A stretch of DNA of 33,426 nucleotides from Alphaproteobacteria bacterium (GTDB lineage: Bacteria > Pseudomonadota > Alphaproteobacteria > Rhizobiales > JAKIUO01): contig JAJRRW010000012.1 of assembly GCA_024279115.1 (NCBI GenBank), positions 1 to 33,426 on the forward strand, given 5' to 3'. Position 1 is the first letter of the stretch. Each line of letters opens with the position of its first letter. Positions 2,848 to 32,589 of this stretch are shown piece after piece. The position numbers and the translations under genes were made by a program. The notes under the pieces were generated by a model. That model worked only from the letters and a program-made list of their open reading frames with translations, was not told where the DNA came from and did not search any database.

Positions 2848-4182
2848 ATAAAAATCTTGCATACAGCGTACTGGCATATCGGGCATGAACTGGCGGGCTG
2901 GTCGCGCGAGCTTGAGCAGGCACGTGTTCTCGACGAAATTTCTGCATTGGTCCTTGCCAACAAGGTCGATGCTCTGGTGATTGCGGGTGATGTTTTCGAT
3001 CATCAAAACCCCTCCAGTGCCATGTACAAAATGTTGTATGAATTTTTCGATGAGCTGGCCATCAAGGCCCCTGATCTCCTCAGCGTGATGATCGCTGGCA
3101 ATCATGATAGTGCGGGGCGTCTTGAGGCTCCCGGGCCGTTGTTAAAGCGCGCCAATGTGGTGGCGATTGGGTCTTTGCACCTGGTGGATGGTCTGCCAGA
3201 TCTTGAGCGCCATTTGATCCGCGTTGAGCGGGCGGGGAAGACCAAAGGCTACATCCTGGCCATTCCCTATCTTCGGCCAGCGGACCTGCCAGGCTTTGGG
3301 GCTCCGCTTGAAGCTGATATGGCGTCGCCGCTGGTCCACGGCATCAAGCAACTTTACCAGCGCACCATCAAGGCCTGTCGCCAGCAGATCGGCGCTCTGC
3401 CGCTTGTGGTGACCGGGCATCTGCATGTGAAAGGTGCCAGCCTGTCAGAATCCCTGTCAGAGCGACGCATCGTCATTGGCGGTGAGCATGCGGTCCCCGC
3501 CGATATTTTTGGTCTTGAAGCAGACTATGTGGCGCTTGGCCATTTGCATCGGGCGCAAAACCTTGGTTCTTCTGGGGCAAAAGAAACTGGCAGCCTGAAA
3601 GAAATTGGCGGCAGCAAAAAATCGGGCGCCAAAAAAGGTAAATCCACTGCCACCAAGCCCTCCCGGCAAGGCCTCGTTCGCTATGCGGGCTCTCCCATGC
3701 CTTTGTCAGTGGTTGAGCGCAGTTATGAGCACGGCGTCAGTGTCGTCGAGCTGACCGGCAAAACCACCATTTGCAACCATCAAAAACTATCTCGCCCGGT
3801 GCCGTTTTTGCGGGTGCCCAAAAAAGGGCGCGTCAAGATCGAAGAGGTTTGCAAGGCTCTTGAGGCCTTGGAGCTTGATCCAAAGGCCTCGTTGGCACAG
3901 CGTCCGTTTGTGCAGATTGCCTTGCAGATAGAGGGCCCTCAACCCGGTATTCGTGCCAAGCTCGATGAGATTTGCTTGCAATTTGCGCTTCGTGATGTGG
4001 CGCCCGACATTGCCTGGCCGGGGCAACAAAGCGCACCCAAAAGCCTTGAACCGGTTAAGCGGCTTGGCGAGCTGCATCCAGATGATTTGTTTAAGGAGGC
4101 CTTTGTCGAGGCCTATGGCAGCGAGCCAGAAGCCGAACATATGGCTTGTTTTCACCAGCTCTTGAACGAGGTGGATAGATGA
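2848..4182 (+). pseudogene. sbcD: SbcD nuclease subunit, start codon and catalytic Asp altered
   Basis: SbcD is the Mn-dependent nuclease subunit of SbcCD (bacterial Mre11-Rad50), which cuts hairpins and blocked DNA ends. The frame runs to an ATGA overlap with sbcC. AAAGGAGG (2833-2840) is placed for initiation at 2848, but the codon there is ATA, followed by KILHTAYWH where the family has MKILHTADWH. Thus the start is lost and Asp8 of the first metal motif (D-x-H) is Tyr (TAC at 2869). The next in-frame start-like codon, TTG 2857, is 16 nt from the ribosome site. The other phosphoesterase motifs are intact: GDVFD, GNHDS, TGHLH and GHLH. A Lys/Ser/Gly-rich insert lies near residues 240-270. 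About 444 codons, a normal length. The rest shows no decay, so loss is recent, or the changes are sequencing errors. Confidence 0.8.
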
Positions 4183-7100
4183 AAATTCTTGCCATACGGG
4201 GGCTTAATCTGGCGTCTTTGCAAGGAAAGTTCGAACTTGATTTCACCCAGGAGCCATTGTTTGGTTGCGGGCTGTTTGCCATAACCGGGGAAACCGGCGC
4301 TGGCAAATCGACCATTCTTGATGCCATGTGCCTGGCGCTTTATGGCCGCTATCCCCGCATCACCGCGCAAGGGGAAAAAAACAAGATCGAAAATACCATG
4401 GGGGAGGCGCTGGCCACCAGTGATCCTCGCTCGATCCTGCGCACGGGTTGTTCGCAGGCCTTTGCGCAAGTTGATTTGATGGTGGATGATAAGCATTTGC
4501 AGGCCAGCTGGCGGGTGCGCCGCGCCTTTGGTAAAACGAGTGGAAACCTGCTTGATTTCGAACGGGCCCTCATAGATTTGCGAGATAATAGTGTCTTGGC
4601 ATCGGGCAAAAAACGGGTCGATGAGGAAATCGCCCGTCGTTTGAAACTTACCTACGAACAATTTGGGCGCACCGTGCTGTTGGCGCAAAATGATTTTGAC
4701 GCTTTCTTGCGTGCTGGCGATGGCGATCGTGCCGATTTGCTGGAAAAAATCACCGGCACGGAGCTCTATTCGAATATTTCCGCAAAAGCTTTTGAGGCGG
4801 AGCGCCGCGCGCTGGCTGATCTGCAAGAGCTGCAAAAAGCCACCGGTTTCATAGAAGTTTTGTCAAAAGAAGATCGTAGCAGACTGCAAGAGCTGGTGAA
4901 GGCCAGCAGGAGCACTCACCAGGAATGGGCAAAAAAGGGACAAAAAATACGCCAGGACCTTGATTGGTATGGCCGCCATGAAGAAGCGGTCAAGCGGCTG
5001 GGCGAGGCCAAAAACCAGGCAAAGCACGCCAAGCAGCAATGGGCTGATGCGGGGGAGGATAGAGCACTGCTGGCAAATCTGGAGAGGGCGCGATCAGCGT
5101 AAGGATTGATTGAAAAAGCCGAGCGTCACGAGCAATCGCTTGATGCATTGCACAAGCAAACGTCAAGCCAGCAGGCCGAAATCAAACAATTACAGCATTG
5201 GCTGGCACAGGCAGATGAGAGGGAGCGGCAACAGGCGCAAAAAAGCGAGGCATCGGAACAGGCGTTAAAAAATGCAGCGCCGTTGTTTGTCCGCGCAATG
5301 CATCTAGATACGCAGATCAGCGCATTGAAAACGCGTCAAGACGAAGGACAAGCAGCGCTGCTTGAAGCAAAGAAAACCAGGGCAGAGTTGCTTGAACAAC
5401 AAGCAAAGCAGCTAGAAAAAACCAAACAGATGGGCGAGCGCCTTGAGGTTTTGCAGCGCGCTCAACTAGCAGAGGCAGCATTGGAGGAGGTGTCAAGGCG
5501 GGCAAAAGACATGGCCTCCTTGTTTCGCTCCCTTGGTGATCTGCAGGTAAAGCAGGAGGATTTGCGCGCTCAACAAGCGGCTCAACAACAACAAAGCGAG
5601 GCCAGTGCCGAAAAACTGGCTGAAATGATGGATGATGGGCAAACCCTGAAAGACAGCCTTGCCAGGTTGCGCGCCAAATGCGACGACAGCGCCAAAAATC
5701 TTGCCAACAACAAACCGGACCAGATGCGCCTCAAGCGGGACCATCAATCAGATTGTCAGGCGCAATTTAACCGATTGTATCATCATGTTGAACAGCTGGT
5801 CGAGCAAACCACCCTTATCGAAAAAACGGGCAAAACATTGCGCGAGGCGCAGCACAAATCAACCCGGAGCAGCGAGCAAGTACAAGAACTTGAGACCGCA
5901 TTGAGCGACCTCAAAAGCCGGGCGGCAGAAGCCGAGCGGGCATTGATCCGCTCCAAAAGTGCGTTGTCAAAACAGGTTTTGTCGCTGCGCGCCAAGCTGC
6001 AACCAGATGAACCTTGCGTGGTATGTGGCTCAACCGACCATCCAGGCCAAGATGATAAGGCGAATAATGAGCTGCTTGAGCTGATGCGGGCTCGTAGCCG
6101 CGAACTGGCTGAAGAAATTGACCGCAATGAGCAAGCACGCAATCGTGCTCAACAAGCGCTGCAACATGCAAAAGCACGGATCGAAAGTGCGGATGACCGA
6201 CTGGCAATCGCCACTGACAAGCTGGCGCAGTTGCAACAAAAAACCGGGAGCTTGAGCCGCGAGGTGCAAGCAGCGGCCAGACGCCTCGATCTGTCGTTGA
6301 GGGTCGTGGGGTCACCGCAAAAGCTGCTAGTGCATATAGCAGAACTGCGCCAAACCAATGAGCATCAGATGGTCGATGTGCGCAAGCAGCTCCTCACCAT
6401 CCAGCAATTGGAGGCACAAAACCGCTCTTGCGCCGAGCAGGTGCTAGCGCTTGAAAGCGCACGCCAAAAGCAGCTCAAAGACCATGACGAACTGGTGAAA
6501 ACAGATCGTAAATCGCGGCAAGAGGCCCATCAACTGGCCGAGCGAGCGGACCGATTGAGCACCCATAGTCACCTGGTGTCCGATCAATTGCTGTCCTTAT
6601 TGTCGGATCTGGAAATTTCCAAACGGGACCTTAAAGGCGATCTAAAAGCGCTTTTGAAGCGCTTGCAAAAGCAGACCAGCCGTTATGACCAGCAACAAAA
6701 AGAAGCGGAACAAATCAAAAGCTCGCTCAACAAGGCACAAGGAGAAGGGGCCGTGCTGGAGGAGCGCATTGAGCATATTGGCGCGCGCTGTGTTGAACTT
6801 GCAGGCCAGTTAGACGAGATTGTCAAAAAGTTGCAAAGGCAGCAAAATGAGCGCCGCGAATTGTTCGCGGGGCGAGGGGTTGCGAAAATCCGCTCCGATA
6901 TGGAAGGGGCGATCAAGCGGGACAATAGGGCCTTGCAAGAGGTCATTGTTGGCAAGCGCGAGAGCGCAGCAAGACTTGAAGAAGTCGAAAAAAATCTTGC
7001 GCGTGGGCGTGAGTTGACAAAAACCACCAGCCGCTCACAGCAACAGGCCCAAAAGGCAAGAGACGCCGCCTTGCGCAGAAAAAAGCTACAATTGCCGCAA

Positions 7101-7934
7101 GCCCTGTCTTTGCTGGCAATCCGCGATGAACAAGCGGGGATATTGAGCAAGCGCATAGAGCATTTGGTGGAACACCGGACCAAAAGCGCTGCCCTGTTAT
7201 CGGATCGAAAACAACATCTCAGCGAGATAGAAAACACCAATAAACCGCCGCGCGCACGCGTTGATCTTGAGGATGATTTGCGCGAGATTGAAGCAGATCA
7301 AGCCATGTTGATGATTGATCTTGGCAAGAATGAGAGTGCTCTTGAGCTCAACGATACAGCCCGTAAAAACCGCCAGAAATTGTCACGCAAAATCGAAGGG
7401 GTTGAAAAAAAGTATGCCCTGTGGGCCGTGATGAGCGGCGCGATTGGCTCCAAAACGGGCGATAAATTTCGCCGGTTTGCGCAAGGTGTCACCCTTGATC
7501 ATCTGATCGCGCTGGCCAATCAGCAATTACGCCATATCAATCCGCGCTATAAAATTGAGCGCAATACCATCGGTGGCCTTGGTTTGCAGGTGATGGATAT
7601 CGAGATGGGCGGCGAAATTCGCTCTGTGCGCTCCTTGTCAGGGGGGGAGCGGTTTTTGGTGTCGTTGGCGCTGGCCCTTGGCCTCTCGCAACTGGATGGT
7701 CGCTCGTCCTTTGTCGATACGCTGATGATTGATGAAGGCTTTGGGGCGCTTGATGCGCGCTCACTCGATATTGTCGTTGAAGCGCTTGAAAGCTTGCAAA
7801 GTCAGGGCCGCAAAGTGGGAGTGATCAGCCATATCGAGGCGCTGACAGAGCGTATTCCGGTGCAGGTACGGGTCGAAAAACAAGGCAGTGGCCGCAGCCG
7901 TGTTCGGGTCATCGAGCAGGGGGTGGGGGGGTAA
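4179..7934 (+). pseudogene. sbcC: SbcC ATPase subunit, interrupted by an in-frame TAA
   Basis: SbcC is the Rad50-like SMC-family ATPase that partners SbcD. Residues 37-45 (GETGAGKST) are the Walker A; a Q-loop segment (LLAQNDFDAF) follows near 170; then long Gln/Glu/Lys coiled coils flank a zinc hook CVVC at residues 613-616; the ABC signature SLSGGER (about 1153) and Walker B LMIDEGFGALD (about 1185) close the protein. The two parts are in one frame, separated only by TAA at 5100-5102 (codon 308), inside the first coiled coil just after the ATPase N-lobe. Truncation there separates Walker A from Walker B, so neither fragment can hydrolyse ATP alone. Re-initiation at TTG 5106 is possible but poorly placed. 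The downstream 942 codons are free of other stops, arguing for a recent nonsense change (for example from CAA) or a base-call error. Confidence 0.85.
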
Positions 7935-22755: not shown

Positions 22756-24252
22756 TTAGATTATCTTGTTTTTTGCCAATTCGGCGAGGACGATATCGGC
22801 AAGATCTTTTGATGATGTGGTGCTGGCGTGAAGGGTGATCTCGGGCGTTTGTGGTGGCTCATAGGGAGAATCGAGACCCGTGAAATTTTTGAGCAGACCA
22901 GCCCGCGCCTTTTTATATAACCCCTTGGGGTCGCGCGCCTCGCAGACCTCCAGCGGTGTATCGACAAATATTTCTACAAATTCATCCTTGTCAAACATGT
23001 CGCGTGCGGCCTGACGTTCGGAACGAAAAGGCGAGATAAACGAGACCAGCACAATGAGGCCCGCTTCCACAAACAGTTTGGCTGTTTCGGAAATGCGGCG
23101 CAGGTTTTCAACCCGGTCTGCATCTGTAAATCCCAGGTCTCGACAAAGGCCGTGGCGCACATTGTCGCCATCAAGTACATAGGTGTGCTTGCCTTGCGCG
23201 TGCAGTTTTTTCTCGACGAGACTGGCAACCGCAGACTTCCCCGAACCTGAAAGACCGGTAAACCAAAGAACGCAAGGATTTTGGCGATTATTGCGGGCCC
23301 GTGCTGCTTTGTCGATCTCAAGCTTTTGCCAATGCAGATTGGTTGCCCGGCGCAGACCGTGCTTGATGATGCCAAAGGCAACAAGCTCTCCCGATTGAGT
23401 ATCTCTCAACAAGAAGCTGCCGGTTTCGCGGTGGTTCTCGAATGGTTCAAATGGGACAGAGCTATCCAGCGACAGGTTGCCATAGCCAAGATTGCCCGAC
23501 AGCAGGCGCTTTGCAGCCTGATGTTCAAGAGTTTCGGGATTGAAACAATGCTTCAGGGTGCTGATGTGAGCCTGCGCTGTTTGCGAGCCATTATCGAAAT
23601 TATAGTGACGACCCGGCAGCATGGGACTCTTTGAAATCCAGGAAAGATAGACCGCAAATTGATCAAGGCTTTCATCGGGGCTGGCTTTTCTGGCGGCGGG
23701 AGCGGGCTTTGAGGCAAGGCTTGAGAGCAACGGTGTCAATGCCTCGCCGTCATGCCAGTCAAAATGAGGGGATTTGCTATGGAGATTATCGCCAGAACGC
23801 AGGTCAACTGGTATGAAGTGCATGCTTTGACAATCAAACTCGACTGGATGATCATTGAACTTGTCTTGCAGGGCTCGAAACCGCTCTTGGGAATAGTCGA
23901 CATGTGACATATTGTCTATGGCCACGATTATGTGGGGAATAGCGGCAAGGCAGCTTAGCGTTTTTATCCAATAGTCTTTTTGTTCCAAGCCAAAATCTGC
24001 ATCAATAACCATGACGAGAATATCGCCACGCAATGATAAAAGGGCGGTGTTAAAGGCCTGGTGGCCCAGTAAAGAAAGGTCGAAAACCGTCATGCAGGGT
24101 GATGAAACCTGGTATTGCTGCGGGTATTTATTCGATCGCTTGGCGTCTGGTTGAAGGTGCGGCCTGGCATCGGGAAACAGGCTGGCACAAATATCATTTT
24201 CTGACAGGCGGGACGGCGAAACCAGTAGTAGATGAGGATTGCGATCAGCCAT
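22756..24252 (-). CDS. Decayed CysN GTPase domain fused to an intact CysC APS kinase
   Basis: The C-terminal ~200 residues are a complete adenylylsulfate kinase, which phosphorylates APS to PAPS: P-loop WFTGLSGSGKSAVAS, YVLDGDNVRHGLCRDLGF, then ENLRRISETAKLF, ISPFRSER, FVDTPLEVCEARDPKGLYKKAR. The first ~310 residues align by eye with CysN (ATP sulfurylase GTPase) as in CysNC/NodQ fusions, down to the linker LRRATNLHWQ. But the GTPase is dead: the P-loop region reads SPSRLSEND, the DTPGHE switch is DLSLLGHQ, NKMD is DNMS, and the central barrel is mostly missing (about 300 residues instead of ~430). A CysN-domain-3-like stretch (NHRETGSFLLRD) remains. No cysD is present here. ATG 24252 and TTG 24279 are both possible starts. 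It follows cysQ on the same strand. Confidence 0.88.
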   Translation of the reverse strand: MADRNPHLLLVSPSRLSENDICASLFPDARPHLQPDAKRSNKYPQQYQVSSPCMTVFDLSLLGHQAFNTALLSLRGDILVMVIDADFGLEQKDYWIKTLSCLAAIPHIIVAIDNMSHVDYSQERFRALQDKFNDHPVEFDCQSMHFIPVDLRSGDNLHSKSPHFDWHDGEALTPLLSSLASKPAPAARKASPDESLDQFAVYLSWISKSPMLPGRHYNFDNGSQTAQAHISTLKHCFNPETLEHQAAKRLLSGNLGYGNLSLDSSVPFEPFENHRETGSFLLRDTQSGELVAFGIIKHGLRRATNLHWQKLEIDKAARARNNRQNPCVLWFTGLSGSGKSAVASLVEKKLHAQGKHTYVLDGDNVRHGLCRDLGFTDADRVENLRRISETAKLFVEAGLIVLVSFISPFRSERQAARDMFDKDEFVEIFVDTPLEVCEARDPKGLYKKARAGLLKNFTGLDSPYEPPQTPEITLHASTTSSKDLADIVLAELAKNKII

Positions 24253-24303
24253 ACATTTGCCTTGCTGTCGATGGGTCAAACATGCCGGGTCCCATCATGA
24301 TAA

Positions 24304-25134
24304 TTATACAAGCTGCCTATCAGCTATATCGGCATCTGCCCAGGCGATAAAAAAGGGGTTCAGATAATTCTTGTCGACTTTTCCATATGTCAAAGGCTTG
24401 CCATCGACCGTCAACACCTGTCCTCCAGCTGCTCTCAAAACAGCATCGCCAACAGCGGTATCCCACTCCATGGTTGGACCAAAGCGTGGATAAAGGTCGG
24501 CATCGCCGCGTGCCAACAAACAAAATTTTAACGAGGATCCAGCGCTTTGCAGATTGCGAACCTTGTATTGTGCGATAAAGGCTTTGGTCTCTTTTGTCAT
24601 ATGAGATTTACTGGCAACAACAGCCAGTCCATTTTCAGGGCTGGTGCTGGTTGTCACCCGCGTCATGTCAAGGTCGCTCAAGGTGGTTTTTGGCCCAAAA
24701 GGATCAAGTTGTGTGGCGATGACTTTATCAGGCGCAAGGGTCACGTAAAGGTCTTTGGTCGCTGGCGCATAAACCATCCCAAAGACCGGCTCCGCCTTGT
24801 CGATCAGGGCGATATTGACCGTAAACTCATGACTTTTGTTGATAAATTCTTTGGTGCCATCGAGGGGGTCAACCAGAAAAAAGCGCTCACCAATATCCGG
24901 GATAATCCCGTGGCTTGCCGCTTCTTCGGCGATGACTGGAATTTGCGGTGCTATGTTGGCAAGGCGCTCAAGAAGGATGGTTTCAGCGGCCTGGTCTGCA
25001 GCCGTAACGGGACTATTGTCGGTTTTAAATGCCACTTCGACATTTTGATCATAGAACTCCATCTCAATGCGGCCCGCCGCCTGAACCGCAGACAACAGCT
25101 CGTTAGCCAGTTCGTGATGTTTGTTAAATGTCAT
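24304..25134 (-). CDS. cysQ: 3'(2'),5'-bisphosphate nucleotidase CysQ
   Basis: Mg-dependent phosphatase that converts PAP, the by-product of PAPS-using sulfotransferases, to AMP. The inositol-monophosphatase fold is clear: AEE metal ligands at residues 69-71, DPLDGTKEF at 89-97, and EWDTAVGDAVLRAAGG near the C-terminus; SPVTAADQAAE matches the family start. 276 residues, full length. It is followed 51 nt later by the APS kinase fusion and preceded by the RfbC-like epimerase, all leftward. Pairing PAPS synthesis with PAP removal next to a polysaccharide locus that also has a sulfotransferase supports a sulfation role. Confidence 0.95.
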   Translation of the reverse strand: MTFNKHHELANELLSAVQAAGRIEMEFYDQNVEVAFKTDNSPVTAADQAAETILLERLANIAPQIPVIAEEAASHGIIPDIGERFFLVDPLDGTKEFINKSHEFTVNIALIDKAEPVFGMVYAPATKDLYVTLAPDKVIATQLDPFGPKTTLSDLDMTRVTTSTSPENGLAVVASKSHMTKETKAFIAQYKVRNLQSAGSSLKFCLLARGDADLYPRFGPTMEWDTAVGDAVLRAAGGQVLTVDGKPLTYGKVDKNYLNPFFIAWADADIADRQLV

Positions 25135-25836: not shown

Positions 25837-27071
25837 TTACCAGATTTTTACATGCGGAACCGCTGTCACAAAGCGCCCCCCCCAGTCACTGATATGGGCC
25901 ATTGAGGTGCTGATTTCCTCGAACAGGTTCCATGGCAGGATGAGGACATAATCGGGCTTTTCGTGCGCCAGTGCCTCGGGAGTGCGAACGGGGATATGGC
26001 TGCCGGGTAACAGATGGTTCTGCTTGGCTGGATTGCGATCGACAACAAAGTCGATATCATCGCTGGTCACGCCGCAATAATTGAGGAACGTATTGCCCTT
26101 GGCAGCAGCGCCATAAGCAGCAACCCGCGCATTTTCTTGTTTCGCCCGCAGCAAAAAGGCCAGGAACTCGTCGCGAATGGAGGCAATATTATGAGAAAAT
26201 TGCTGATAGGTGGCGAGTTGATGAAGGCCTGCTTGTGCTTCCTTGGCACGTATCAGCGTGACGCCGGGTTGCGCCTCATGGAACGCCGCGCCATGGCAGG
26301 CAAACACCCGCAAGGAGCCTCCATGGGTTGGCAATTCGCGCACATCAAACACCCGCATGCCAACAGCGGTCAGAACCTTTTCGACGCTAAGCAATGACAG
26401 ATAGGAATAATGCTCATGATAGATGGTGTCGAACTGGTATCCTTCAATGAGGTTGAGCAGATGCGGGAATTCGAAGGTCACGACGCCCTGGGGTTTTAAT
26501 ATTTTGGGAAAACCAGCGGCAAAGAACCGAATATCGGGGACATGGGCAAACACATTATTGGCAGCAATCAGATCAGCTTTAACGCCATCGTCAGCCAAGG
26601 CCTGTGCACTTGTTTCATCAAAAAAACGGATTTTGGTTGGCACGCCCAGTTCAATGGCGGCCTTGGCGGCAGCACCGGCTGGTTCGATCCCCAGCACCGG
26701 GATTTCCTGCTCGACAAAATAGCGCAAAAGATAGCCATCATTGCTGGCCACCTCGACAACAAGACTATCCGCGTTGAGCCCAAAGCGCGCGCTCATATCC
26801 TTGCTATAGCGTTTGGCATGGGCCAGCCAGCCCTTGGAAAATGACGAAAATACGCGTAGTCATGATCAAATATTTCATCGGCTGGCACTGCGGCATCCAG
26901 TTGTACCAAAAAGCATGTGCCGCATGTTTTGGCATGTAACGGATAAGAGCGCTCCGCAGCAATATGGCTCGCTTTGTTTGGCAAATAGCTGTTGGCGAGC
27001 GGCATTTCGCCAAGGTCGGCAAAACTCGTCTCAAGCGGGGCACCGCAAAAGCGGCAAGGGGGATTGGTCAT
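25837..27071 (-). pseudogene. Sugar C-methyltransferase, frameshifted
   Basis: SAM-dependent methyltransferase of the TylC3/NovU type that adds a C-methyl group to NDP-4-keto-deoxysugars. The N-terminal zinc domain (residues 1-~75: CRFCGAPLETSFADLG, then CGTC, ending DHDYAYF) is in one frame, 26793-27071; the rest, with SAM motif VVEVASNDGYLL, the HEHYSYLS block and C-terminal domain (AAYGAAAKGNTFLNY), is in another, 25837-26796. The break is exact: reading TTTT at 26847-26850 (minus strand) as TTTTT restores FSSFSKGWLAHAKRYSKDM across the junction. So one T is missing from a homopolymer; this is real loss, slippage, or a base-call error. It overlaps the dehydratase stop by ATGA. A G8 tract at 25876-25883 near its end is in frame. 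Confidence 0.88.
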
Positions 27072-28129
27072 TTAAGGTCCATAAAACTGGTTATTTGATG
27101 GCGGGTGAATTGATCCATATCGGTGCCATTCTTGAGTTCAAGATACCAGGCTGCCGTCCATTCAACAGCCTTTTGGTCGGGAAGATAGTCTTGCCAGTTG
27201 AGCACCAGACGGGCTTTGCTGGTATCAAGGCTAAGGCTTTTCATTTCTTTGGGCAACGGGCCCTTTTCCTGCTGCCAGCCACGCGGTGTCTGCAAGGCTT
27301 CTTGCATTATATCAGCCAGCCGTGAAACAGAGATCGGCCTCTCGCCGGTGGGCCCGAAATTAAGAGTGCCCGGCACTGTTTTTGGTTCGGCAAGTGACAG
27401 TTTTTCGATGTATAAAAAATAGCCATTCAGGCAATCAAGCACATGTTGCCAGGGTCTTGTTGCCTGTGGATAGCGCAGGATCAGTGGTTGCTGGCTTTGT
27501 GCGGCGCGCCAGATATCGGGCACAATGCGGTCGGTTGAAAAATCACCGCCACCGATGACATTGCCGCCGCGCGCCGTGGCGATTTTAACGCCGGAATCAG
27601 CGAAAAACGCACTGGCATAGCTGGCCGTGACAAGTTCAGCGGCCGCTTTGGAGACGGAATAGGGATCATGGCCCCCCATGCGATCTTCCTCCACGAAGGG
27701 CTGACCTTCCTCGTTGTTTTTATAGACCTTGTCCGAGGTGATGATCAATATGGTGTCCAGCGTGTTGACGCCGCGCGCCGCTTCAAGCAGATTTGCGGTG
27801 CCCATAATATTGGCCTCTAAGGTCGCCAATGGGGAGGTGTAGGAGGGCCGCACCAGTGCTTGTGCGGCCATGTGAATGATGATGTCGGGGCGCACCTGCT
27901 GGACAATTTGCGCCAATTTGTCGGCATCGCGAATATCGGCGATGACCGAGTTTATATCGGCAGTAATGTGAGCCAGAGAGAACAGGTTGGGCAAGGTATG
28001 AGGTTGCAGGGCAAGGCCCGTGACCTTCGCCCCAAGCGAAGACAGCCAGTGCGCCGCCCAGGCCCCCTTGAAGCCGGTGTGGCCGGTCAATAATATCTTT
28101 TTACCTCGCCAGAACGTTGAATTGACCAT
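27068..28129 (-). CDS. rfbG: CDP-glucose 4,6-dehydratase
   Basis: NAD-dependent short-chain dehydrogenase/reductase that turns CDP-glucose into CDP-4-keto-6-deoxyglucose, the entry to 3,6-dideoxy and branched deoxysugars. 353 residues: nucleotide fold TGHTGFKG at 15-22, catalytic T131-S-D133-K134, and Y157-x3-K161 in DPYSVSK, plus the family stretches ARGGNVIGGGDF and RPWQHVLD. ATG 28129 opens MVNSTFWRGKKILLTGHTG; a longer in-frame reading upstream is not homologous. It begins one base after the rfbF stop and overlaps the C-methyltransferase start by 4 nt, so the three are tightly coupled. Confidence 0.95.
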   Translation of the reverse strand: MVNSTFWRGKKILLTGHTGFKGAWAAHWLSSLGAKVTGLALQPHTLPNLFSLAHITADINSVIADIRDADKLAQIVQQVRPDIIIHMAAQALVRPSYTSPLATLEANIMGTANLLEAARGVNTLDTILIITSDKVYKNNEEGQPFVEEDRMGGHDPYSVSKAAAELVTASYASAFFADSGVKIATARGGNVIGGGDFSTDRIVPDIWRAAQSQQPLILRYPQATRPWQHVLDCLNGYFLYIEKLSLAEPKTVPGTLNFGPTGERPISVSRLADIMQEALQTPRGWQQEKGPLPKEMKSLSLDTSKARLVLNWQDYLPDQKAVEWTAAWYLELKNGTDMDQFTRHQITSFMDLK

Positions 28130-28130
28130 A

Positions 28131-28905
28131 CTAGTTCCAAACCTTCCAGGGGGCATGGCCAGATTGCCAGAGTTGTTCGAGATGTTTGCGATCACGCAAG
28201 GTATCCATGGCGTGCCAGAACCCGAGGTGGCGAAATGCCGTGAGCTCTCCAGCTTTGGCCAGATGATTGAGCGGCTCCCCCTCCCAGGACGTATCATCAT
28301 CTTTGATGAGATCAATGACATCGGGCTGCAAGACGAAGAAGCCGCCATTGATCAGACCTTCATCTCCGGGCGGTTTTTCGGTAAAGCGGGTGATGCGGTC
28401 CCCGTCGAGCTCGATAGCTCCATAGCGCCCGGGGGGGGATCACCGCCGTCATGGTGGCGCGCTGGCCATGTTGTTTGTGAAATCTGGTCAAGGCGGCGAT
28501 ATCAACATTGGCAACACCATCGCCATAGGTCATGCCAAACGCTTCCCCTTCATCGAGAAAGGAGCGTATCCGCTTCAGGCGCCCGCCGGTCATCACATCC
28601 TCGCCCGTATCGACCAGCGTGACTTTCCATGGCTCTGTCTGCGACTGGTGATAGGTGATTTCCCCGGAGCGCGCATCCACCGTGATGTCGGAATTATGCA
28701 GCACATAATTGGCGAAATATTCTTTGATCATATAGCCCTTGTAACCAAGGCAGATAATGAATTCGTCGAGCCCGTGATGGGCATAAAGCTTCATGATATG
28801 CCACAATATGGGCCGTCCACCAATCTCGATCATCGGCTTTGGCTTGAGATGGCTCTCTTCGGATATGCGGGTTCCATATCCCCCCGCCAGTATCACTGTT
28901 TTCAT
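28131..28905 (-). pseudogene. rfbF: Glucose-1-phosphate cytidylyltransferase, frameshifted at a C8 tract
   Basis: Makes CDP-glucose from CTP and glucose-1-phosphate. ATG 28905 opens MKTVILAGGYGTRISEESHL and KPKPMIEIGGRPILWHIMKLY; YGDGVANVDI follows. The frame then fails in a run of eight C (minus strand; G8 at 28431-28438). With seven C the reading continues VIPPGRYGAIELDGDRITRF and on into DTSWEGEPLNHLAKAGELTAFRHLGFWHAMDTLRDRKHLEQLW and the WKVWN end (28131-28331), giving the expected ~257 residues. As sequenced the protein stops at 28360 after about 181 residues. Slipped-strand phase variation, decay or miscounted homopolymer are all possible. It is the first gene of the leftward operon. 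Confidence 0.9.
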
Positions 28906-28915
28906 GGCTGTTTCT

Positions 28916-28944
28916 CTTGACTGCATTGTTGATCTTATTTACAT
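28916..28944 (+). promoter_or_regulatory. Possible promoter of the rightward polysaccharide operon
   Basis: CTTGAC (28916-28921), 17 nt, TTACAT (28939-28944). The -35 matches the alphaproteobacterial consensus exactly and the -10 is fair. It would give a leader of about 80-100 nt before the acetyltransferase gene. Confidence 0.4.
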
Positions 28945-31725: not shown

Positions 31726-32589
31726 ATGAGGTGGGACTTGCATAAAATATTAAGCAAAATTTCTTTGCGCGCTCGCTATCTTGGCATGGCTGTGCCGCGC
31801 TATCTAAGAACCGGCGAAAAACAACCGCAAATCATTTTTATACATGTGCCCAAGGCAGCGGGCTCTTCGATTAACCGCTATATCAGGCATAGCGTTGGCC
31901 CGTTGATAGGGAACAATCACGCCAATCTCAACGAGGTCCATTTTACCAATGATGGCCAAAAGCGAGATCGACAGATTTTAGCGGCACGCCGGGTTCGTTA
32001 TGTCTATGGGCATATGGCATGGGAAACCATGGAAGCGGTGCGTCAGGGGCGTGAGGCCTATGTTTTTACCATGCTGCGAGCGCCCGCCGCCAGATTGCGC
32101 TCGGAATATTTTTACGCTAAAAATCTACCAATGAAACGACTGCAAGTGGCGATTGCAGATGGTCAACTAGCGGCTCAAATAGCTGAGATGTCGCCTCTGG
32201 AATTTTTTACCTGCCAGCATCCGCGCCTGCGTCTTGGTCTGGATAATTTCATGGTGAGGCAGCTTTGTGGTGATTTTTCCATGTCTCCCCAGACAGATGA
32301 TGACTGGCGCGACTTGCTTGAAAAAGCCAAAAACCATTTGCACCAACTCGACTATGTAGGTTTTCAAGAGCGTTTTGATGACGATTTTGGGGAGATCACC
32401 CTTGGTGCGGGTTTGCCGCAAGTCAAGCGCGCAACAAGGGTCAACACGACGAAAAGCCTGTTGTCTGAAACAGCATCTTCTTCCCCAATACCGGCCGAAT
32501 TTGATGATGAGGTGAAAAATGCCATTGTCCCGCTCATTCGCTGGGATCTGGAGCTGTATGATTTTGCCCGTGAGACTTTTACAGCGTAA
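31726..32589 (+). CDS. PAPS-dependent sulfotransferase family protein
   Basis: A 287-residue protein with the Sulfotransfer_2-like fold. The 5'-phosphosulfate loop is IIFIHVPKAAGSSINRYI (His40-Val-Pro-Lys to Ser48), and the 3'-phosphate motif is TMLRAPAARLRSEYFYAK (Arg118, Ser126), both typical of carbohydrate sulfotransferases. RYVYGHM matches the strand between them. The ATG at 31726 has no clear ribosome site; AGGTGGG suggests TTG 31738 as an alternative. It lies in the rightward operon, while the APS kinase fusion and CysQ are in the leftward one, so PAPS supply and use are at one locus. The acceptor is probably the surface glycan or a lipid-linked sugar. Confidence 0.85.
   Translation: MRWDLHKILSKISLRARYLGMAVPRYLRTGEKQPQIIFIHVPKAAGSSINRYIRHSVGPLIGNNHANLNEVHFTNDGQKRDRQILAARRVRYVYGHMAWETMEAVRQGREAYVFTMLRAPAARLRSEYFYAKNLPMKRLQVAIADGQLAAQIAEMSPLEFFTCQHPRLRLGLDNFMVRQLCGDFSMSPQTDDDWRDLLEKAKNHLHQLDYVGFQERFDDDFGEITLGAGLPQVKRATRVNTTKSLLSETASSSPIPAEFDDEVKNAIVPLIRWDLELYDFARETFTA

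Follow-up and report, generated by a model that had tools for sequence, protein, structure and literature searches.

Why should a bacterium keep the remains of a GTPase whose catalytic motifs have disappeared, fused to an APS kinase that looks fit to work? The question is raised by a gene on the reverse strand of a 33,426-nucleotide stretch of DNA (the window) from an alphaproteobacterium of the order Rhizobiales (contig JAJRRW010000012.1 of assembly GCA_024279115.1), the end of the window being also the end of the contig. A sequence-only reading had described the product as a CysN in which all GTPase signatures are replaced and the central barrel is largely gone, joined to an intact CysC, and this description is borne out by alignment, phmmer and profile matches (Table 1). 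An alternative upstream TTG start at 24279 would lengthen the fusion to 507 aa.

Table 1. Features of the fusion gene and of two further genes of the window.
Feature	Position	Strand	Basis
Pseudo-CysN/CysC fusion, 498 aa from ATG	22756..24252	-	ORF and profile matches
Residues 1-60, former P-loop/switch I part, G1 gone	24073..24252	-	Alignment and codon model
Residues 61-190, dead G-domain core	23683..24072	-	phmmer, codon model (purifying selection), fold match
Degenerate G3, FDLSLLGHQ replaces ADTPGHEQY	24058..24084	-	Alignment to intact relatives
Degenerate G4, DNMS replaces NKMD	23905..23916	-	Alignment to intact relatives
Junction of deleted CysN domain II (~96 aa)	23665..23706	-	phmmer and alignment
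CysN domain III (eEF1A C-terminal-like barrel), residues 198-297	23362..23661	-	PF22594 E 1.4e-17; length constant in relatives
CysC APS kinase, residues 300-498	22759..23355	-	Profiles; P-loop GLSGSGKS at 333-340; SFISPFR, KGLYKKARAG/FTGLDSPYE found
cysQ, 3'(2'),5'-bisphosphate nucleotidase, directly upstream of the fusion	24304..25134	-	TIGR01331 E 1.3e-83
Sulfotransfer_2 family protein, candidate PAPS user	31726..32589	+	PF03567 E 5.5e-08, over cut-off

In the alignment to intact relatives, the G1 motif GSVDDGKS has no counterpart in the fusion, the position of the G4 motif NKxDL reads DNMSH, and domain II comprises 14 residues against 96; inspection of motifs together with this alignment revealed no P-loop, DxxG or NKxD anywhere in the N-terminal half. 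Residues 75-181 match positions 103-209 of the CysN model TIGR02034 weakly, and the protein misses the cut-off of that model (121.9 against 336.1 bits). In a phmmer comparison with the CysN chain 1zun_B (E 9e-22), residues 62-179 pair with 112-233 and residues 196-296 with 332-432, and the approximately 100 residues of domain II missing between the two blocks form a clean deletion; with domain II cut so short, the protein departs from the three-domain architecture (G, II and III) of CysN. The CysC half lies over the cut-offs of Pfam APS_kinase PF01583 (residues 326-474, E 1.8e-68, 229.8 against 21.1 bits) and of NCBIfam apsK TIGR00455 (E 4e-75, 251 against 138.7 bits), carries the active-site segments GLSGSGKS, LDGDNVRHGL, FISPFR and KGLYKKARAG, and can be aligned end to end with plant and human APS kinases. 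It is, as far as its residues tell, a working-looking APS kinase, and no second strong match to APS kinase occurs in the draft genome (2.83 Mb). The ATP-sulfurylase-like domain PF01747 gave no match in the fusion, which places it outside the EhAPSK/TdAPSK-type class.

A homologue with the same degenerate half, which the sequence-only reading had asked for, is present in a congeneric genome (G001). This orthologue shares 54% identity with the protein of the window (genome G000), agrees with it in architecture and in the domain II junction, reads SDISGQAHK and DNMAM at G3 and G4, and likewise lies directly behind cysQ. Within the remnant, a stretch of about 130 residues for which a G fold is predicted has retained 41% identity, with conserved patches FGLE-K and CLAAIP-IAIDNM. 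As the dead state is common to both proteins, the simplest assumption is that it goes back to their last common ancestor, and the features that they have in common would then have been kept within a dead protein. The fusion is accessory in the genus, three of the four congeners (G002, G003 and G004) being without a match. A scan of genome contigs returned only the congener already known, and a scan of viral contigs only a distant CysC-like match.

Whether the N-terminal half is still under selection was addressed with codon models. For the G000/G001 pair, omega = 1 was rejected for the G core at residues 61-190 (2dlnL 64.8), for domain III (41.5) and for CysC (118), dS being saturated in this pair so that the sizes of omega cannot be relied on and it is solely the rejection of neutrality that carries weight. 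For residues 1-60 omega was 0.73 and neutrality was not rejected (2dlnL 0.4, 37 codons). The earlier estimate that some 310 residues remain alignable to CysN is thus right and can be refined, in that about 60 N-terminal residues are not measurably constrained and about 250 are; the accompanying claim that the half is not a product of random decay holds for its core. Neither of the outcomes named beforehand as counting against that reading, namely a lack of homologues with the same degenerate half or a neutrally evolving N-terminal region, was found. A second, closer decayed pair, from genomes G361 and G267 (dS 0.3-0.7), gave omega values of 0.28 for the G domain, 0.28 for domain II, 0.16 for domain III and 0.14 for CysC, and omega = 1 was again rejected for the G domain (2dlnL 30.9); intact pairs of the same group, g113, showed 0.06-0.07 for G and 0.03-0.05 for CysC. 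Since omega of CysC and domain III in the decayed pair is raised by a factor similar to that of G (about fourfold over intact), the G part is not singled out for release. The remnant is relaxed yet constrained, and the relaxation reaches CysC.

The fold of residues 1-189 was predicted by AlphaFold from a two-sequence alignment (pLDDT 61.5, pTM 0.64). In the comparison with CysN that had been proposed at the outset, VIA-align against solved structures returned 1zun_B as the best match to this low-confidence model (Z 14.9 over 169 residues), with EF1A-type G domains at 12-14, and Foldseek alone placed EF-Tu first and 1zun_B at rank 46 (TMq 0.57). A full-length prediction from a two-row alignment (pLDDT 51.8) was used for secondary structure only. 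The model favours, without proving, a kept G fold in residues 1-189, and the N-terminal half, to judge from sequence and predicted fold together, is a descendant of CysN. It would rank structurally as a pseudo-GTPase, with a GTPase fold (predicted at pLDDT 61.5), motifs gone and retention by selection.

The genome around the fusion offers a reason why a GTPase might have been released. Profile searches of the own and four congeneric genomes found no protein of family PF01507, so that CysD and CysH are both absent, and no CysN over cut-off; the CysD model TIGR02039 had no match in the own genome. Docking of the remnant to CysD, one form of the docking to ATP sulfurylase suggested by the sequence-only reading, is thereby ruled out. 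Sat is present once in each of the five genomes, and the own copy clusters with aprA (E 3e-293), aprB and qmo-like genes in a sat-aprBA-qmo locus that, by its gene content, appears to encode the dissimilatory APS pathway. With both Sat and AprBA present, APS can come from either, and with CysH absent, PAPS is not needed by a CysH-type reductase.

The relation between CysD and the state of CysN was followed through 397 genomes of the order, 60 of them without a CysD match, CysN-like halves being inspected in both kinds. CysD is missing and Sat present in all 21 genomes whose CysN half is decayed, and all 22 scorable genomes with an intact-motif CysN carry CysD, the intact set being drawn from best matches and hence a sample rather than a census. 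The association across the 43 scorable genomes is perfect (Fisher p 1e-12, kinship ignored). Five rows were unscorable, being cut at contig ends or uncertain for CysD; G192 and G357, considered as exceptions because they show no full CysD and no Sat, have contig edges beside CysN-CysC and were set aside as such, and G373 was left out of the tree because of assembly gaps. The weak CysD-model matches in G040 and G010 come from short PF01507 proteins that fall far short of the CysD cut-off, and in 15 of 19 further decayed genomes PF01507 is absent altogether. Genes of the apr or qmo type stand at the Sat locus in G064, G088, G025, G267, G046, G040, G010, G334, G028 and G049. In group g113 the decayed G361 and G267 nest in a supported clade with four intact genomes that carry both CysD and Sat; as Sat is also present in these intact sisters, the arrangement suggests that decay tracks the loss of CysD rather than the presence of Sat. 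Group g43 sets the decayed G046 (no CysD, with Sat) against G085 and G119 (with CysD, no Sat). The tree of domain III and CysC requires seven state changes, at least five of them on supported branches; a single origin of all decayed fusions was rejected (AU p 3.6e-7), and a sign test on five independent pairs taken from supported branches only gave p 0.06. Decay of the CysN half has arisen independently and repeatedly in related bacteria without CysD but with Sat, a pattern that lay beyond the reach of the sequence-only reading.

The 21 decayed proteins also indicate which part of CysN remains attached to the kinase. Their G part measures 5-258 residues (about 240 when intact) and their domain II 14-122, whereas domain III with its linker measures 132-140 residues, against exactly 133 in all intact proteins. 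The decay is graded, from single motif changes (DTQGH in G334; DTPDH and EKID in G010) up to total loss of G and domain II in G021 (331 aa) and G051 (367 aa), where only domain III remains on CysC; the CysD-less G167 and G359 retain domains II and III. As these four genomes do without the G part, the G shell in itself can be dispensed with. What persists is domain III together with CysC, the GTPase core being a pseudo-GTPase relic that may be present or absent. The earlier interpretation is supported in part, for retention against neutral drift but not for the G shell as such; domain III, which had not been singled out, is the part that always persists. Two genomes hold additional arrangements: G050 has a Sat-CysC fusion (L104 154-1992) alongside a decayed CysN-CysC (L103), and G051, which is without CysD, has two copies (L053 261-1690 and L054 3303-4406), the first of which is split, with a 186-aa G remnant separate from a 282-aa ORF of domain III and CysC before a polyketide synthase gene, while the second consists of domain III and CysC only.

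The gene neighbourhood points to a use for PAPS. CysQ genes adjoin the fusion in G000, G001 and G088. Polysaccharide genes are its immediate neighbours in G064, G167 and G046; in G361 a single gene separates them from the fusion, and in G000 and G001 they neighbour cysQ. Outside G000, these genes belong to sugar-nucleotide synthesis or polysaccharide export and encode Wza (along with Wzc and its phosphatase), UDP-glucose/GDP-mannose dehydrogenase and mannose-1-phosphate guanylyltransferase. The window itself contains an rfb-type cluster on the same strand as the fusion, and the candidate sulfotransferase gene lies about 7 kb away on the opposite strand. Such a setting is consistent with a supply of PAPS for sulfated polysaccharide. 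Two irregularities of the window were noted in passing. At 27068-28926 (-) a nucleotidyl transferase ORF of only 188 aa, covering 1-140 of the 245 profile positions, is followed by an ORF with about 80 residues ahead of its dehydratase domain, as if a frameshift had split an rfbF-like gene; at 4179-7934 (+) ORFs of 307 and 942 aa, in a shared frame and separated by a stop at 5100-5102, resemble by eye one SbcC-type ATPase with an in-frame stop.

Taken together, these observations are probably best explained if the fusion is an APS kinase that makes PAPS for sulfation and holds a selected pseudo-GTPase relic of CysN as a structural or activity-supporting module. An ancestor would have had the ordinary complex of CysD and CysN-CysC, and CysD would have been lost in a lineage with a Sat-type ATP sulfurylase and the dissimilatory sat-aprBA-qmo module, a loss that would have removed the sole known partner of the GTPase half. 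The CysC half would still have been needed, PAPS being the donor for sulfotransferases and CysQ presumably clearing the by-product PAP. The GTPase motifs, the switch regions and domain II would then have decayed, selection keeping domain III and, in the lineage of the window, the G-fold core; the part kept would most likely serve the CysC dimer, in the manner of the dead domain of the Entamoeba enzyme discussed below. We infer that PAPS goes to sulfation, that APS comes from Sat or AprBA and that the module acts on CysC. Against this explanation it may be held that deletions towards CysC could harm CysC, so that domain III might be kept by the fusion alone, and that the candidate sulfotransferase is distant and on the other strand. 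CysC of Mycobacterium tuberculosis, moreover, is an active dimer when isolated from its CysN part (PMC4373884), and a CysN module is thus not needed by CysC in general.

That counter-precedent leaves a strong rival, somewhat less probable than not, according to which the CysN half is functionless and is being lost stepwise, domain III alone being too tightly joined to CysC for safe deletion. The decay series speaks for it, running from point changes in the G motifs (G010, G334 and G015) through loss of motifs to proteins without G and domain II (G021 and G051), as does the higher omega of the G domain in G361/G267 (0.28) than in intact sister pairs (0.06-0.07). The same value is, however, only about four times the intact one, CysC and domain III of this pair are raised alike, neutrality was rejected for the G core in both decayed pairs, and a remnant of some 130 residues with a predicted G fold has been retained at 41% identity. 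A docking platform, by which the relic would tether CysC to Sat, AprBA or a sulfotransferase for direct passage of APS or PAPS, is unlikely. It would suit the presence of Sat in every genome with a decayed fusion and the conserved patches of a remnant with a predicted fold, but Sat is unrelated to CysD, the inherited CysD-binding face would not fit it, and the G part is absent in other Sat genomes. Sensing of GTP or ATP by an N-terminal half with rebuilt motifs is very improbable for the protein of the window, which has no P-loop, DxxG or NKxD, even though the decayed fusions of G361 and G267 (L058 and L066) keep a P-loop-like GGAGSGK[ST] and NKMD while the switch I part is missing, and to judge by these motifs may bind nucleotide. 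An error of sequencing or assembly in an intact CysN-CysC gene is hardly conceivable and the loss of motifs and domain unlikely to be an artefact, for although the genome is a 145-contig draft, the frame stays open across 498 codons, the changes take in three motifs as well as a complete domain, an independent congener in the same state refutes the error, and CysD is absent from five genomes.

These genomes form a clean, repeated natural experiment in which the loss of a partner, CysD, accompanies the decay of its GTPase, and which bears on why dead domains persist; intact and decayed sisters occur within one genus, and the order of losses can be read across genomes. A wider and tentative proposal, which we would rate as rather doubtful, is that domain III, with or without the dead G core, is a general APS-kinase-supporting module hidden in CysN-CysC that becomes visible once CysD is lost, bacteria then having repeatedly converted a subunit of a GTPase-driven ATP sulfurylase into a domain that regulates APS kinase or helps to assemble it, a parallel to the dead domains of the Sat type in Entamoeba and Thiobacillus. 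The decay also matters in practice for annotation, whose models match a portion of the decayed protein and might name it a bifunctional sulfate adenylyltransferase/APS kinase, a mislabel that would predict CysDN-type sulfate activation where none exists.

A literature search of limited coverage returned no description of a decayed CysN on CysC, and several known systems resemble the fusion in part. The APS kinase of Entamoeba histolytica (PMC13213808) likewise combines a C-terminal active kinase with an N-terminal dead sulfate-activation domain, the removal of which leads to aggregation and to a drop in kcat of about 100-fold (PMC13213808); this dead domain belongs to the Sat type and is unrelated to CysN, whereas that of the fusion is a GTPase. 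The two-domain APS kinase of the sulfur oxidiser Thiobacillus denitrificans (PDB 3CR8; PMC13213808) is also a bacterial kinase joined to an inactive ATP-sulfurylase-like domain, and differs in that this domain is of the Sat type, not homologous to CysN, and the enzyme a hexamer. In fungal ATP sulfurylase (Penicillium chrysogenum, PDB 1I2D) one half of a sulfate-activating fusion is similarly regulatory, as a mirror image, the allosteric half being the APS-kinase-like one. Among pseudo-GTPases, degenerate septins (PMC10731463) and domains of p190RhoGAP (PMC5593906) have kept their fold after loss of motifs and play assembly or supporting roles, in eukaryotes and in other GTPase families. The closest system is the CysN/CysC (NodQ) subunit of the CysD-CysN complex (1zun chain B; M. 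tuberculosis CysNC), whose G core, domain III and CysC are homologous and follow one another in an identical order; the fusion of the window is a new variant of this family, devoid of G1, G3, G4 and domain II and encoded in a genome without the CysD partner.
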